Below are positions 3,290-42,539 of a stretch of 42,539 bases of DNA, in pieces. The notes under the pieces were generated by a model that saw only the letters and a list, made by a program, of their open reading frames with translations, did no database searches and was not told the origin of the DNA. The DNA is from a virus: positions 1 to 42,539 of the IMG/VR virus record IMGVR_UViG_3300045051_000584, one strand, 5' to 3'. Positions within the stretch are counted from its first letter, which is position 1, and each line of letters begins with the position of its first letter. A program made the position numbers and the translations under genes.

Positions 3290-3774
3290 TTGGCCCCCCG
3301 GTATCCGTTCATGAACGCCACAAGCCGCGCGGCCTGGCGGTACGACTTGCAGCGGGCGTACAGTTCCCCGTCGGCGGTTACGACGGCCGGGTAAACCGGC
3401 GCGCCCGCCTCTACGCATACTTCGGGCGCGCTCTCGACCTTAAAAACCGCCGTATGAAAATTGCGATGTTTATAGAGATAGCCGCCCCCGCCGCTATTCT
3501 CTTTTATGGCCACAACGGCCGAAGACAGCACGGCGCCGCCGCCGATACTGCGCGCATTTGGTATCAAGAGCGCCGCTTTTATCTCGGGGCCGAAAGAGCG
3601 GCCAATATAGCCAGTTACGTCGTTTTCTTCGTTCCAGGCTTTGCCCGTTTCCTGGTCCCCGTAGAAAAGCCGGACCCGCAAGCCCTTAACGCGCGCCAGC
3701 TCTAGTGCTACCGCCACGTCCTCGGGCGTGTCTTCGGTAAAATGCGTACCACCGATTAGCTTATACTCTTTCAT
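3286..3774 (-). CDS. Conserved hypothetical phage early protein, 162 aa
   Basis: Begins MKEYKLIGGTHFTEDTPEDVAVALELARVKGLRVRLFYGD and continues GKAWNEENDVTGYIGRSFGPEIKAALLIPN. It is a well-ordered alpha/beta protein, and from memory this motif set recurs in an uncharacterised protein family of phages and plasmids. The C-terminal third (ADGELYARCKSYRQAARLVAFMNG) looks like a separate small domain. Start ATG 3774 follows AAAGGA and a GC hairpin (3790-3813). Location in the early operon suggests a host-takeover or anti-defence role, which is inference. Confidence 0.75.
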   Translation of the reverse strand: MKEYKLIGGTHFTEDTPEDVAVALELARVKGLRVRLFYGDQETGKAWNEENDVTGYIGRSFGPEIKAALLIPNARSIGGGAVLSSAVVAIKENSGGGGYLYKHRNFHTAVFKVESAPEVCVEAGAPVYPAVVTADGELYARCKSYRQAARLVAFMNGYRGAK

Positions 3775-3789
3775 AATGTTTTATCCTTT

Positions 3790-3813
3790 GCCCGGCGTTC
3801 CGCGCCGCCGGGC
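3790..3813 (-). promoter_or_regulatory. GC hairpin in the leader before the 162-aa gene
   Basis: Perfect 8-bp inverted repeat GCCCGGCG / CGCCGGGC with an 8-nt loop, between the stop of the 70-aa gene and the AAAGGA ribosome site of the next gene. No T-run follows, so it is probably an RNA-stability, processing or translation-control element rather than a terminator. Confidence 0.5.
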
Positions 3814-3832
3814 TTGCGCGTCTTCCCGTTGT

Positions 3833-4045
3833 CTAGCGCTCAAACTGCGCGCGCCGCACTATCACGGCGCCTTTCAGGTAGCTGGCGCGGCCCGTCTTAT
3901 TGCGGAGTGCGCGGCGCCCCAGGCGCGCGGCCAGGGCATTGAAGTCTACCGAGATATCAACGGGCACGTCTTCGACGTTGTGCGCGTCATCGGGCGTACC
4001 GTCGATAATCCAGCGCTGGGTAACTGTTCCGTTTTTCACAGGCAT
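3833..4045 (-). CDS. Hypothetical early protein, 70 aa
   Basis: MPVKNGTVTQRWIIDGTPDDAHNVEDVPVDISVDFNALAARLGRRAL, then a short basic end with LKGAVIVRRAQFER. Acidic first half, basic second half. The start at 4045 has AAGGGGGA about 10 nt upstream and lies 2 nt downstream of the stop of the 317-aa gene. No recognisable domain. The protein is likely real because of its ribosome site and tight packing. Confidence 0.65.
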   Translation of the reverse strand: MPVKNGTVTQRWIIDGTPDDAHNVEDVPVDISVDFNALAARLGRRALRNKTGRASYLKGAVIVRRAQFER

Positions 4046-6054: not shown

Positions 6055-6140
6055 TGGGTCAACGTAATATATTTAACGATGATTTTTGAGGCCCTAAAAA
6101 TGGGCCTAAAAACGGCCCCGAAAACGGGCACGAAAAAGCC

Positions 6141-6534
6141 TTACACAATTCCTTACACATGAACGCCGCGCAAGTGTAAGGCGGGCCGAAGTGTAAGGAA
6201 ATAAGGGCGCGCGGCGTGGCGCTGGCGCGCACATAACGCGCGGCGCCGCGCTAACGCCTTACACTTACACATAAAAGGGCCGTTTTGCGTAGATGTGTAA
6301 GGACTTGTGTAAGGCCGCAATTCTCCTATGAGGATTGTATATCCTTACACATCTTACACATCTTTTAGAGGTACAAGAGTATAAAGGGGGCAGTATACGC
6401 GGTATACGTCCTATACGGCGTATAGGTATAGAGTTTGAAAGTTTGCGAAAAGATGTGTAAGATGTGTAAGACCTCTAAAAACGCTCGCCGGAAAATCCTT
6501 ACACATCTACTCTTACACATCTACTCTTACACAT
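6141..6534. repeat. TTACAC iteron-like cluster, candidate replication origin
   Basis: Counting by eye there are 15 copies of TTACAC: nine forward (6141, 6153, 6259, 6265, 6345, 6354, 6499, 6513, 6527) and six reversed (6174, 6191, 6295, 6307, 6455, 6464). Ten extend to TTACACAT. The last three forward copies are exact 14-bp direct repeats of CTTACACATCTACT. Two doublets (6345/6354 and 6455/6464) face each other across a TATAC-rich centre. The segment is non-coding and lies between two divergent operons. Clustered iterons like this mark replication origins and operator arrays; which it is here is not proven. TTACACA is not a standard DnaA box. Confidence 0.85.
6363..6480. repeat. TATAC ladder between inverted TTTTAGAGGT arms
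   Basis: Inverted arms TTTTAGAGGT (6363-6372) and ACCTCTAAAA (6471-6480) bracket a core where TATAC/TATAG recurs every 9 bp (6394, 6403, 6412, 6421). The core contains the palindrome CCTATAC-GGC-GTATAGG (6410-6426). The iteron doublets lie just outside the left arm and just inside the right arm. The near-symmetric layout suggests a protein-binding core, perhaps an AT-rich melting site or a repressor operator. Confidence 0.7.
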
Positions 6535-6977: not shown

Positions 6978-7007
6978 TTGACAGCCCCCCGGCCGATAGC
7001 CTATACT
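6978..7007 (+). promoter_or_regulatory. Rightward structural-operon promoter, TTGACA-N18-TATACT
   Basis: A perfect -35 (6978-6983) and TATACT -10 (7002-7007) with an 18-nt spacer and A-tracts immediately upstream. The predicted start is near 7014. It would drive the rightward operon beginning with the lipoprotein at 7017. With no phage RNA polymerase in the genome, this host-type promoter is probably the main late promoter, unless held off early by something binding the adjacent repeats. Confidence 0.85.
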
Positions 7008-7861: not shown

Positions 7862-8438
7862 CGGCGAACCGGCGCCCGTCGCGCCCCCGCCCGCCTCTAC
7901 CCCCTTCCCGCCGGTGCCCCTGGGCGCTGAAGACAGCGGGAAGGGGGCGGCGGTCGTGGTGCAGCGTCGCGTCATCACCTGGACCCCTGAAGGCTTGCCC
8001 GTCCCCACGTCCCAGCCGCTACTCTCCAAGCGCGGCATAGAGGAGCTGGCCTCCGTCGCCCTTTCCCTGCCCTACGTCGTGCCGCAGCCCGAGCTGCCGC
8101 CCGAGCCCGCGCCCGAGGCCCCGCTCACCGTCACCGAGAAGTATGAGCGGGAGCGCGACGCTATCCTCGACAAGTATCACGCCGAGGTAGAGAAGTTCGC
8201 CGGCATGACGAACGCCGAGGTCATGATGGTCAGGCAGGCCGAGAAGGCCGCCAATGGCGACAGCGGCGCCGCGAACGACATTCTCGACCGCGTGCTCGGT
8301 AAACCCAAACAGTCCGTCGAGAGCAAGAACCTCAACCTGACCTACGAGGACATGCTGAAGGAGAAAGCGGCCCGCGCGTCCGAAGTCGTAGACGCCGAGG
8401 TCGTGCGCTCGGACGACCTTTGGGGAGGGCTGAAATAG
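7839..8438 (+). CDS. Putative terminase small subunit, 199 aa
   Basis: The C-terminal half contains EVMMVRQAEKAANGDSGAANDILDRVLGKPKQ followed by NLTYEDMLKEKAAR. This is a pattern common in phage small-terminase or packaging-associated proteins encoded just before TerL. The first 60 residues are Pro/Ala-rich and probably disordered. It lies 1 nt before the large subunit start and overlaps the previous gene, so the three are co-translated. The classical N-terminal HTH is not obvious, so recognition of packaging sites is inferred from position. Confidence 0.65.
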   Translation: MATPLLPNGEPAPVAPPPASTPFPPVPLGAEDSGKGAAVVVQRRVITWTPEGLPVPTSQPLLSKRGIEELASVALSLPYVVPQPELPPEPAPEAPLTVTEKYERERDAILDKYHAEVEKFAGMTNAEVMMVRQAEKAANGDSGAANDILDRVLGKPKQSVESKNLNLTYEDMLKEKAARASEVVDAEVVRSDDLWGGLK

Positions 8439-10427: not shown

Positions 10428-10467
10428 CCGTGGGTCGGCGCTCCTCCTCTGTGGCGCCGCCCCACGG
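10428..10467 (+). terminator. Hairpin before the portal gene
   Basis: Paired segments CCGTGGG/CCCACGG (7 bp) and GGCGC/GCGCC (5 bp, after a small bulge) enclose a 12-nt loop, followed by CCCTAAAGTTTTAACC. It resembles a weak intrinsic terminator or an RNA-processing site in the 98-nt gap. The portal ribosome site (AAGGAG) follows. Confidence 0.5.
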
Positions 10468-12637: not shown

Positions 12638-13489
12638 ATGCCCGACGAAAAACCCAATCCGCAGCCCCCGCAGACCCCGGCCCCCGGCGGCGCCCCGACC
12701 CCGACTCTCGAAACCCTCATACCCGAGGAGTTCAAGAACCGGGCGTACCTCAACGACCTGAAGGCGCTCCCCGTGGGCCCTGACGGCTACAGCGCCCTGT
12801 TCAAGAAGCTGGACGGCGCGCAGACGCTTATCGGCAAGAAGACCGGCGTACCCGAGCAGGGCGCCGCCCCCGAAGCCTGGGAGGAGTTCCACAAGCTCAC
12901 CAGGCCGGGCAAGGCCGAGGAGTACGAGTTCACCGTGGCCGAGGGCGTCCAGGCTGACGAGGAGTTCCTGGGAGCCATGCGTGGCATGTTCTACGAGGCC
13001 GGCGTATCGAAAGCGCAGGCCAAGAAGCTTCAGGCGGGCTATGAAAAGTTCGTCGTGGAGAAGTACGGGGCCCAGGTGGCCGAGCGGAAGCGGCTGGACG
13101 CCGAGTTCCAGCAGCTCATGACCTCCACGTTCGGGACCGAGAGCAAAGCCAAGTTCGACACCGGCAAGGCGCTGCTCTCCCAGCTTACGCCCGACTCCCT
13201 GAAGCCGCACCTGAACCGCCTCTCCAACGAGAGCTTGGTCGTGCTCACCGGGATAATGAGCACCGTTAAGGAGAAGTTCATGAAAGAGGACGGCTCCTTT
13301 AACGGCTCGGGCGGCACCCCGCCTGTCGGGGAGGACGAGAACGGCCTGCACGACAAGGGCCGCAAGCTGATGGCGTCGGAAGCATACACTAACTTCCGGC
13401 ACCCCGAGCACGCGAAGGTGGTGGCCGATGTCGGCGCCATCTACAAGAAGCTGGGCGACATGAAGACTGCCGCCGGCAATAAGAAGTAA
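12638..13489 (+). CDS. Capsid scaffolding protein, 283 aa
   Basis: A Pro-rich disordered N-terminus (about 1-25), a central acidic helical body and a charged C-terminus ending YKKLGDMKTAAGNKK, as scaffolds use to contact the capsid shell. LTRPGKAEEYEF matches the 'P-x-K-x-Y-x-F' element common in podovirus scaffold/assembly proteins. It lies directly before the capsid gene, and 1 nt after the Bbp19-like gene. No protease motif seen. Confidence 0.8.
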   Translation: MPDEKPNPQPPQTPAPGGAPTPTLETLIPEEFKNRAYLNDLKALPVGPDGYSALFKKLDGAQTLIGKKTGVPEQGAAPEAWEEFHKLTRPGKAEEYEFTVAEGVQADEEFLGAMRGMFYEAGVSKAQAKKLQAGYEKFVVEKYGAQVAERKRLDAEFQQLMTSTFGTESKAKFDTGKALLSQLTPDSLKPHLNRLSNESLVVLTGIMSTVKEKFMKEDGSFNGSGGTPPVGEDENGLHDKGRKLMASEAYTNFRHPEHAKVVADVGAIYKKLGDMKTAAGNKK

Positions 13490-13499
13490 GTGGAAAATG

Positions 13500-13541
13500 C
13501 CTGCCCGCAAGAAAGTCCTTGACAAGGCGCTTGCGGGCAGG
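13500..13541 (+). promoter_or_regulatory. Perfect 12-bp inverted repeat overlapping a promoter
   Basis: CCTGCCCGCAAG (13500-13511) and its exact reverse complement (13530-13541) are separated by 18 nt. The right arm is the spacer of the promoter at 13519-13547 and the -35 lies in the loop. It could be a repressor operator on DNA, or a terminator-like hairpin in read-through transcripts. Confidence 0.75.
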
Positions 13542-13547
13542 TATACT
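13519..13547 (+). promoter_or_regulatory. Capsid-gene promoter, TTGACA-N17-TATACT
   Basis: A perfect -35 (13519-13524), 17-nt spacer and TATACT -10 (13542-13547), 226 nt before the capsid start. It shares both hexamers with the promoters at 6.03 and 6.98 kb. A separate promoter would raise capsid output, the most abundant virion protein, above its neighbours. Confidence 0.85.
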
Positions 13548-13710
13548 ATCTTCGATTTGTAATGAGGACACGGCGCGTCCGCGCCCCCTCTGATAGCGGT
13601 CAGCCCGCTCGCGTCCGCGCGCACCAGGAGAGCTCACCCGTCGTAGTCGAAACGGATACTGCGCTCGAAAAACCCAAAGCAGTTGTTTTTGCAGCAAGGA
13701 TGAAAAGCTA

Positions 13711-13773: not shown

Positions 13774-14658
13774 ATGGCAGAACCTATCGACAATGCGATG
13801 GTGACGCAGTTCTCGGACATGGTGCACAACGCGGCCCAGCAGACCAAGGCCCGCCTGCGCCCCTACGTTTCCATCAAGCAGATGACCGGCGACGTGTTCG
13901 CCTACGACGGCCTGGGCCCGGTGGAGGCGTCCGAAATCGTCGGTATGCACCAGCCGGTCGTCTTCGCCGACATCGACCACAAGAGGCGCAAAATCAGCCG
14001 CCGCCGCTTCGCGGTGACGCTGCCCATCGACGCCTCGAACGTGCGCGGTATGCTGCTCAACCCGCAGTCCGAGTACGCGATGGCCTGCGTGCGCGCTATG
14101 GAGCGCGTGTTCGACCGCGTGGTGGTCGGCGCCCTGTTCGCCGACGTCTACACCGGCCGCGACTTCGGCACGACCGTCACCTTCGCCAACGACGGCGGCA
14201 AGACCGTGGTGGCCACCGCCGGCCTGACCTACGAGAAGCTGCTGGAAATCAACCAGAACTTCATCGACAACGAGGTCGGCAACGACAGCCCCGTGACGAA
14301 GGTCATGGGCATTTCCGGCGACGAGCACACCGCGCTCATGAAGGAAACCGAGCTGGTGTCCGGCGACTATAGCCGGCAGTACGTCATCGACGGCGGCGAA
14401 ATGCAGAAGGCGGCCGGCCTCGGCCTGGTGAAGTTCGCCGGCGCCATCAACCGCCCCATCCTCGACGTCACCGGCGGCGTGCGCTCGTGCTTCGTGCTCG
14501 CCCAGGGCGGCATGGTGGTCGGCATGTCGAAGGACATGGCCCTGACCATCAAGGACCGCTCCGACCTGCACGAAACCACCCAGGTCGAGATAGTCTTCGA
14601 GTTCGGCGCCGTCCGCACCGAGGGCCTGCTGGTGCAGAAGGTCACGACCACCGAATAA
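13774..14658 (+). CDS. Major capsid protein, 294 aa
   Basis: Position after the scaffold gene, strong ribosome site (GGGGAGGAG) and own promoter fit the major head protein. Sequence features agree with the podovirus capsid group (Phage_capsid_2-like, HK97 fold): a helical N-terminus, an alpha/beta body and the C-terminal strand pattern MALTIKDRSDLHETTQVEIVFEFGAVR. I use ATG 13774 because the upstream in-frame ATG at 13720 lies before the ribosome site. The family call is from context and pattern; no cleavage site seen. Confidence 0.85.
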   Translation: MAEPIDNAMVTQFSDMVHNAAQQTKARLRPYVSIKQMTGDVFAYDGLGPVEASEIVGMHQPVVFADIDHKRRKISRRRFAVTLPIDASNVRGMLLNPQSEYAMACVRAMERVFDRVVVGALFADVYTGRDFGTTVTFANDGGKTVVATAGLTYEKLLEINQNFIDNEVGNDSPVTKVMGISGDEHTALMKETELVSGDYSRQYVIDGGEMQKAAGLGLVKFAGAINRPILDVTGGVRSCFVLAQGGMVVGMSKDMALTIKDRSDLHETTQVEIVFEFGAVRTEGLLVQKVTTTE

Positions 14659-14677
14659 TCGGGGGCCAGCCGCATAA

Positions 14678-14709
14678 CCCCCGCTCCCGACTTGAAACCG
14701 GGGGCGGGG
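14678..14709 (+). terminator. GC-rich hairpin after the capsid gene
   Basis: CCCCCGCTCCCG pairs with CGGGGGCGGGG (one G-U pair and a small bulge) around a 9-nt loop, followed by TTTAAG. The U-tract is short, so it is likely a partial terminator or mRNA 3' stabiliser separating capsid from downstream expression levels. Confidence 0.6.
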
Positions 14710-14753
14710 TTTAAGTAGAATCTGAAGACCCCTATGGGGGAGGAGAAGAAACA

Positions 14754-15271: not shown

Positions 15272-15307
15272 GCCCCCGTCGCCCTACTCTAGTGGGGTGA
15301 CGGGGGC
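15272..15307 (+). terminator. Hairpin between decoration and tail genes
   Basis: GCCCCCGTC (15272-15280) and GACGGGGGC (15299-15307) form a 9-bp stem, extendable by CCC/GGG after one mismatch. No T-run follows. Probably an RNA-stability or processing element; a weak terminator is possible. Confidence 0.5.
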
Positions 15308-36074: not shown

Positions 36075-36111
36075 CCCACCCCCGCCGCTAATACGCCGCA
36101 GCGGGGGTGGG
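36075..36111 (-). promoter_or_regulatory. GC-rich hairpin between SSB and polymerase genes
   Basis: A perfect 11-bp inverted repeat, CCCACCCCCGC / GCGGGGGTGGG, with a 15-nt loop, 13 nt before the polymerase start and after the DUF2815 stop. There is no U-run, so it is more likely to shield or process mRNA, or dampen polymerase translation relative to the abundant SSB, than to terminate. Confidence 0.6.
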
Positions 36112-41788: not shown

Positions 41789-42539
41789 TAGATTAACCCG
41801 TCGAGCGCTTCGCCGTACTTTGCCTTCAGCTTTTCAGCCTCGGACTTCGGCTTGCCGTACCCGCGAACCGCGTGGCCGTTCAGCCAGCGGACCTCGGCCA
41901 GGAAGCCCTGGGCCCGCAGAATGTTCGCTATGGCCACTACCTCGCGCCTGGTGAGGGTTTTGTCCATGCCGCCGATGGCGTCGATGTAGACCTCGCGGCT
42001 GGTCACAAAGTCGCGCAGCAGGCCGCTCAACGGGTCCGGCTGCGTCAGCCAGGTCACTATCCGCTCGGTCCAGGGGTGCTCGACCTGCCGCAGCCCGACG
42101 ACGGCCTTGGCCTCCTGTTTAAGTGCGTCGGTTTCCATATAAAGCAGCTCCCCTTCTTTCACGCGCTGGACGGCCTCGGCGTAAAGCATGTTGCGGACTT
42201 CCGTTATCCCTTTGAAGTTAATCCTGTCGGCGACCTCGATAGGCCAAAAGCGGCGATTGCCCGTCGGGTCGTCGAGGTAGGCTTTATCGGCCTGCGGATT
42301 TATCGTGCCGATGAAGATGGACTGCCGCAGAAACTCCTGGGACAGTCGGCCATACGCCGGCCGCACTTTGTCGACGCGCCTGGTGATGAACGCCTTCAGC
42401 GCTTCGCGGTCGTTGCGGCTTGTGTTGAGTATGGACATCTCGGCCAGCTCGATTATCCACTTGCCCTGCATGTTCGCTATGGTGTCCTTGTTCGACGGGT
42501 CCACGGCGAAGTCGGCGCCCCACTTCCAGCCCAGCGCCG
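41788..42539 (-). CDS. Primase-helicase, C-terminal part (continues from 1..1573 across the contig ends)
   Basis: Carries the C-terminal half of the SF3/VapE ATPase: the Walker B region (GKWIIELAEM), ITRRVDKVRPAYGR (sensor-like basic loop), FIGTINPQ (motif C-type Asn) and DPTGNRRFWPIEV, a hallmark of VapE/VirE-family helicases. A winged-helix-like tail (TRREVVAIANILRAQGFLAEVRWLNGH) follows, and the protein ends in LDGLI. Bases 42363-42539 repeat 1-177, so the full gene on the circle is 716 codons including the stop. Confidence 0.92.
   Translation of the reverse strand, partial: ALGWKWGADFAVDPSNKDTIANMQGKWIIELAEMSILNTSRNDREALKAFITRRVDKVRPAYGRLSQEFLRQSIFIGTINPQADKAYLDDPTGNRRFWPIEVADRINFKGITEVRNMLYAEAVQRVKEGELLYMETDALKQEAKAVVGLRQVEHPWTERIVTWLTQPDPLSGLLRDFVTSREVYIDAIGGMDKTLTRREVVAIANILRAQGFLAEVRWLNGHAVRGYGKPKSEAEKLKAKYGEALDGLI
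42363..42539. repeat. Contig-end direct repeat, copy 2
   Basis: Same sequence as the first 177 bases with a single silent change (G at 42412). It marks the circular join; see copy 1. Confidence 0.9.

Follow-up and report, generated by a model that had tools for sequence, protein, structure and literature searches.

A promoter-like sequence embedded in an inverted repeat, followed by a predicted structured leader RNA, upstream of a viral major capsid gene

The stretch of DNA analysed here, called the window throughout, is a virus record of 42,539 bases (IMG/VR IMGVR_UViG_3300045051_000584) in which the head, portal, capsid and tail genes are carried by the plus strand and the replication genes by the minus strand. 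Since its first 40 bases (region 1-60) are repeated at about 42362 (region 42362-42539) and a VapE-domain gene is split over both ends, the record resembles a nearly complete genome whose ends overlap. The gene of the major capsid protein (phrog_3437; 13774-14658, plus strand, ATG at 13774) is separated by a gap of 284 nt from an upstream head gene (12638-13489, plus strand), and the gene found at the homologous position in MW202485 is annotated as a scaffold protein. This gap harbours the hairpin-promoter and the leader described below, and a second hairpin-promoter lies behind the capsid gene. Two further gene-boundary hairpins of the plus strand are devoid of promoter; they occupy the gaps that precede the portal (head-tail adaptor) gene (10428-10467) and the tail gene (15272-15307). 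Elsewhere, an 11-bp perfect GC-rich inverted repeat (36075-36111) is located just upstream of the start of the minus-strand DNA polymerase. The sequence CTTACAC or its complement occurs 15 times within about 400 bp (6138-6532), for an expectation of about 1.7 per strand over the whole genome. Divergent promoters (6054-6026 and 6978-7007) flank this cluster, which has the appearance of an iteron array or an origin.

As announced by the original prediction, a perfect 12-bp inverted repeat spans 13500-13541 on the plus strand. Its left arm (13500-13511, CCTGCCCGCAAG) and its right arm (13530-13541, CTTGCGGGCAGG) are separated by a loop of 18 nt, which holds the -35 hexamer TTGACA (13519-13524). 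The spacer (13525-13541) is 17 nt long and its last 12 bases are the right arm itself, directly followed by the -10 hexamer TATACT (13542-13547), whose end lies 226 nt from the capsid ATG. This arrangement of the -35 and of the right arm had been predicted correctly. The promoter had also been described as an exact consensus, a slight overstatement for TTGACA-17-TATACT, which makes 11 of the 12 consensus matches; hexamers of the sigma70 type with a spacer of 16-18 nt are nevertheless present. The stem can be lengthened to 15 positions at 93% (13497-13511 with 13530-13544), and the RNA of 13490-13560 folds at -31.8 kcal/mol (z -4.7, none of 200 shuffles being as good), a very stable structure that bears out the hairpin proposed for read-through RNA.

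By itself the inverted repeat carries little weight as evidence, as this GC-rich genome contains two perfect 12-bp repeats with a loop length of 3-25 nt where 20 Markov simulations lead one to expect 0.35; what counts is the coincidence with a promoter. The other repeat (7900-7947) is found at no listed promoter, as would suit a neutral coincidence in which hairpins are common in a GC-rich genome and template switching keeps their arms matched. Against this explanation, a hairpin of equal strength and geometry (dG <= -24.5 with at least 10 linking pairs) was reached at no more than 43 of 3000 random positions in the window, versus 2 of the 10 promoter-like sites, both of which flank the capsid gene. 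The recurrence of the element at the same junction in all four members of a clade, and its second occurrence downstream of the capsid gene in two of them, as detailed below, also argue against neutral coincidence, which is judged unlikely.

To compare this junction, 59 capsid relatives from IMG/VR were gathered along with the window and six other loci. Three of these (L046, L059 and L061) were left out beforehand, their capsid gene being too near the contig end, and the removal of 10 duplicates from the 63 regions left 53 distinct pre-capsid regions; eight distant phage records (L069, L073-L079) were read by eye, outside these counts. A Megablast search among phages gave no match to the window, and a search of genome contigs yielded no further relatives. 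Pattern searches returned five and seven stretches, all from contigs with the capsid leader, and another returned three known contigs plus four unrelated matches (L080-L083).

A promoter-like sequence reaching at least 8 of 12 consensus matches was found at the junction in 50 of the 53 regions, and 34 reach 9 of 12, with the proviso that the finder takes the best site and makes an implausible pick at some loci (for example L044, L026 and L023). The independent capsid promoter that had been predicted is credible on account of this presence across the family. In most regions of the wider family the promoter-like sequence is free of any hairpin and often overlaps the upstream stop codon. A perfect stem of 12-13 bp whose loop holds the -35 and whose right arm lies within the spacer was observed in three of the 53 regions (the window, L002 and L013), none of 300 shuffles being as good in each case, and L012 carries an equivalent element with one bulge and a G-T pair. 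L002, L012 and L013 are the three relatives closest to the window, and all four phages fall into a single clade of the capsid (support 0.999). The pre-capsid hairpin-promoter is limited to these four, among listed sites with six or more linking pairs or a consensus match at 11 of 12 positions; the pre-capsid hairpin is absent from L016, L018 and L019. The result that was to refute the original prediction, relatives retaining the promoter but losing the left arm, is seen in most of the wider family but not in the closest clade, where 4 of 4 members have a hairpin.

The second hairpin-promoter of the window (14676-14721, plus strand) comprises a left arm (14676-14689), a -35 TTGAAA (14692-14697), a right arm (14699-14711) and a -10 TAGAAT (14716-14721). 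Its stem includes one bulge and one G-U pair, and TTGAAA-18-TAGAAT is thereby enclosed in a hairpin of -26.0 kcal/mol. Behind the capsid gene of L002, TTGACC-18-TATAAT is found in a hairpin of -33.6 kcal/mol; the two elements of this record of 39,900 bases are 2 of its 26 promoter-like sites, the next strongest site reaching -19.9. Post-capsid gaps were measured in 21 of 51 cases, the rest being shorter than 35 nt, lacking a recognised next ORF or presenting frame problems. All seven GC-rich relatives whose measured gap is 80-124 nt long (the window, L002, L012, L016, L017, L018 and L019) have a hairpin of 11-16 bp there, and the other measured gaps are without such GC-rich stems. A promoter was recognised in only two of these seven hairpins (the window and L002), and their tails contain 0-4 T in 8. 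Since the promoter exists without the hairpin in the wider family, and the post-capsid hairpin without the promoter in the GC-rich subgroup, the two are separable modules that coincide in the clade of the window.

The arm sequences of the window, L002 and L013 are mutually different, and a ACGCAGGG stretch is common to the arms of L012 and L002; the arms also differ between the two elements of one phage. When the partners of six elements were swapped, own arm pairs scored -24.9 to -33.6 kcal/mol and the own partner was the best in every row and column. The strongest of the 30 foreign combinations (L002 left with L012 right) reached -26.1, and the foreign pairs of the two post-capsid elements fold nearly as well as their own (-24.1 and -22.5). 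Because some foreign pairs are nearly as good as the own ones, arm turnover is complete only among the window, L002 and L013.

These observations bear directly on the dimeric repressor that the original prediction had placed on both arms, where it would block RNA polymerase. The dyad symmetry does overlap the spacer and the -35, as in an operator of this kind. However, the arms vary among relatives and also, within one phage, from one element to the other, and no recognition sequence is shared apart from the partial sharing of L002 and L012. The bulge and G-T pair of L012 spoil the symmetry of the DNA and not an RNA hairpin. Moreover, matches to the window arm at up to two mismatches are at chance level (seven including its own two arms, for 7.7 expected), and no repressor family was matched among the 22 distinct window proteins scanned, a part of the proteome. 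The operator was rejected because of these changing arm sequences, and hardly any credence is given to it. Of the double role initially proposed, to insulate and independently control capsid synthesis, insulation is plausible and control by a repressor is unsupported. Arm letters that change while pairing is kept, differing arms within one phage, bulges or G-U pairs and the lack of further arm copies point instead to a boundary hairpin acting as RNA and laid over a promoter, even if matched arms could also be maintained, in the absence of selection, by template switches that correct palindromes.

Pairing would be kept without sequence conservation by a DNA hairpin as well, namely a cruciform extruded by supercoiling that removes the promoter from duplex DNA. 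Cruciform-regulated promoters have a short loop or an AT-rich centre permitting extrusion, and repeats with long loops and GC-rich arms extrude poorly. The perfect stems have loops of 9, 18 and 20 nt and GC-rich arms, without the short loop or AT-rich centre in question, and the bulge and G-T pair of L012 weaken a DNA hairpin. A switch at the DNA level is consequently seen as highly improbable.

The boundary hairpin could also terminate transcription. A canonical intrinsic terminator was rejected, no T-run being present after the hairpin in the window, L002, L012 or L013; in the window, TATACTATCT follows the stem in place of a U-tract. A terminator scan of the window does not list the hairpin, its loop limit of 8 missing an 18-nt loop in any case. 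A fused terminator and promoter, with the AU-rich -10 region serving as a poor U-tract, draws on three relatives (L003, L017 and L020) in which a 12-13-bp hairpin and its T-run end 11-14 nt upstream of the -35, so that a separate terminator and promoter share this junction. In the window, L002 and L013, by contrast, 4-5 T are scattered over 10 bases without forming a run, and the post-capsid hairpins are also without U-tracts; this fused version is doubtful. On a distant branch, L037 possesses (at about 770-830) a 13-bp hairpin with a T-run, whose right arm overlaps a -35-like hexamer, putatively another terminator/promoter overlap.

The preferred explanation, with a rough probability of 0.55, is that a gene-boundary hairpin of read-through RNA is superposed on an independent sigma70-type promoter. 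Two independent functions would thus share the same 48 bases. The promoter would start the capsid message at about 13554, some 7 nt past the -10, and this message would begin with the structured leader, without the hairpin. In RNA that reads through from the head genes lying upstream, this stretch would give rise to an intercistronic hairpin of 12-15 bp, serving to end or punctuate the message of those genes by blocking 3'-to-5' decay, by undergoing cleavage by a double-strand RNase or by weak termination. The predicted fold has the long intercistronic hairpin of a candidate RNase III processing site. The hairpin would also separate the upstream sequence from the leader, allowing the latter to fold alone. 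Promoter use, start site and action of the hairpin in the cell are all inferred from sequence. This composite is an unusual variant of known parts, and the portion of the open-access literature consulted, including PMC2864571, contains no report of the hairpin-promoter or of the leader.

The leader itself extends over 13564-13666 (plus strand) in the window, where it was placed by its motifs and pairing pattern and not by model R1. It includes H1 (13564-13590), H2 (about 13595-13609), a CGCG hairpin (about 13610-13621) and H3 (13630-13666), all on the plus strand. An alignment of 13 relatives (A2) contains three hairpins. The outer strands of H2 coincide in part with those of H1 and H3, and two arrangements therefore fit nearly equally, with 93.1% and 95.4% of cells paired, figures that are favoured by structures drawn by hand from the same sequences. 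Their covariation scores (0.312 and 0.307) compare with at most 0.083 when slid, none of 500 shuffles was as high, and each arrangement has eight pairs with changes on both sides. H1 and H3 contain the same asymmetric motif, mirrored, in which GUAG is opposite U or AUAC is opposite C, with two variants among the 13 aligned relatives. Both copies agree in class in 34 of 38 regions, against a mean of 17.1 and a maximum of 28 over 2000 shuffles, a statistic that includes shared descent within the sample and a regex written after reading the sequences. These 38 come from 52 scanned regions: 10 of the 14 dropped had no two separate regex matches, and in the other four (L014, L041, L045 and L053) the matches were considered to be something other than this pair of motifs. 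The first motif of L002 was placed by hand, the automatic search misplacing the H1 partner in L002, L012 and L013.

Of 23 records, 8 contain the leader according to model R1 (E <= 0.001), each as a single copy located before the capsid gene. Over 62 loci, 15 pass 1e-5; 13 of these had served to build the model, and another, L049, has a leader in common with L048. The model has no match to the leaders of the window, L002, L012 and L013, the sole window match being noise (E 8.2). The version of the window has additional hairpins, and its core CGCGTCC...CACCCGT...ACGGATACTG is common, with small changes, to seven relatives; the two motifs, the pairing pattern and this core assign it to the family. 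Rfam gave no match at the gathering threshold for the window and 20 relatives (21 sources), and a known riboswitch or ribozyme was rejected on this basis, as was c-di-GMP-I-UAU, the best sub-threshold match with 18.2 bits for a threshold of 65.9. In L014 (about 3750-3850), the leader bears a piece resembling a tRNA T-arm (GGTTCGATTCC); a tRNA was rejected, ARAGORN having found none. Part of the leader can be recognised by eye in Alteromonas phage ZP6 (L070). This leader RNA, apparently undescribed and uncatalogued, is probably a more important discovery than the hairpin-promoter and merits a separate study.

A broader and less likely reading would have the capsid gene bracketed by a new kind of composite element, which would work together with a new class of leader RNA. 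A cut of the hairpin in read-through RNA would leave a leader whose 5' end almost coincides with that produced by the promoter, so that both routes would deliver one leader. One partner, perhaps a capsid or scaffold protein, would bind the junction with its two mirrored motifs and tune capsid synthesis. The design is compact, as one stretch of DNA would be a promoter as DNA and a boundary hairpin as RNA, and the changing arms offer natural evidence of pairing. A conserved leader before the major capsid gene provides a testable handle on the way in which these phages adjust their capsid-to-scaffold ratio.

Among known systems, the late region of T7 contains RNase III hairpins between cistrons, with a promoter and a terminator around gene 10. 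The window resembles it by its hairpins between late genes, its capsid gene with a promoter of its own and its structured late leader. T7, however, has a polymerase of its own, and its promoters are not known to lie within hairpins, whereas the putative promoter of the window is of the sigma70 type and is enclosed in a hairpin, the cleavage of which is putative. The GC-rich stem of 12-15 bp at a gene boundary recalls an intrinsic (Rho-independent) terminator, all the more since T-run hairpins occupy this junction in L003, L017 and L020; in the window, a -10 hexamer takes the place of the U-tract. Finally, the covarying helices upstream of one gene family are reminiscent of structured 5' leader RNAs, either riboswitches or protein-binding leaders. 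The capsid leader is set apart from those already known by its pair of mirrored bulge motifs, both of one type, and by the lack of any Rfam match, and it stands as a single copy in each matched record, before the capsid gene.
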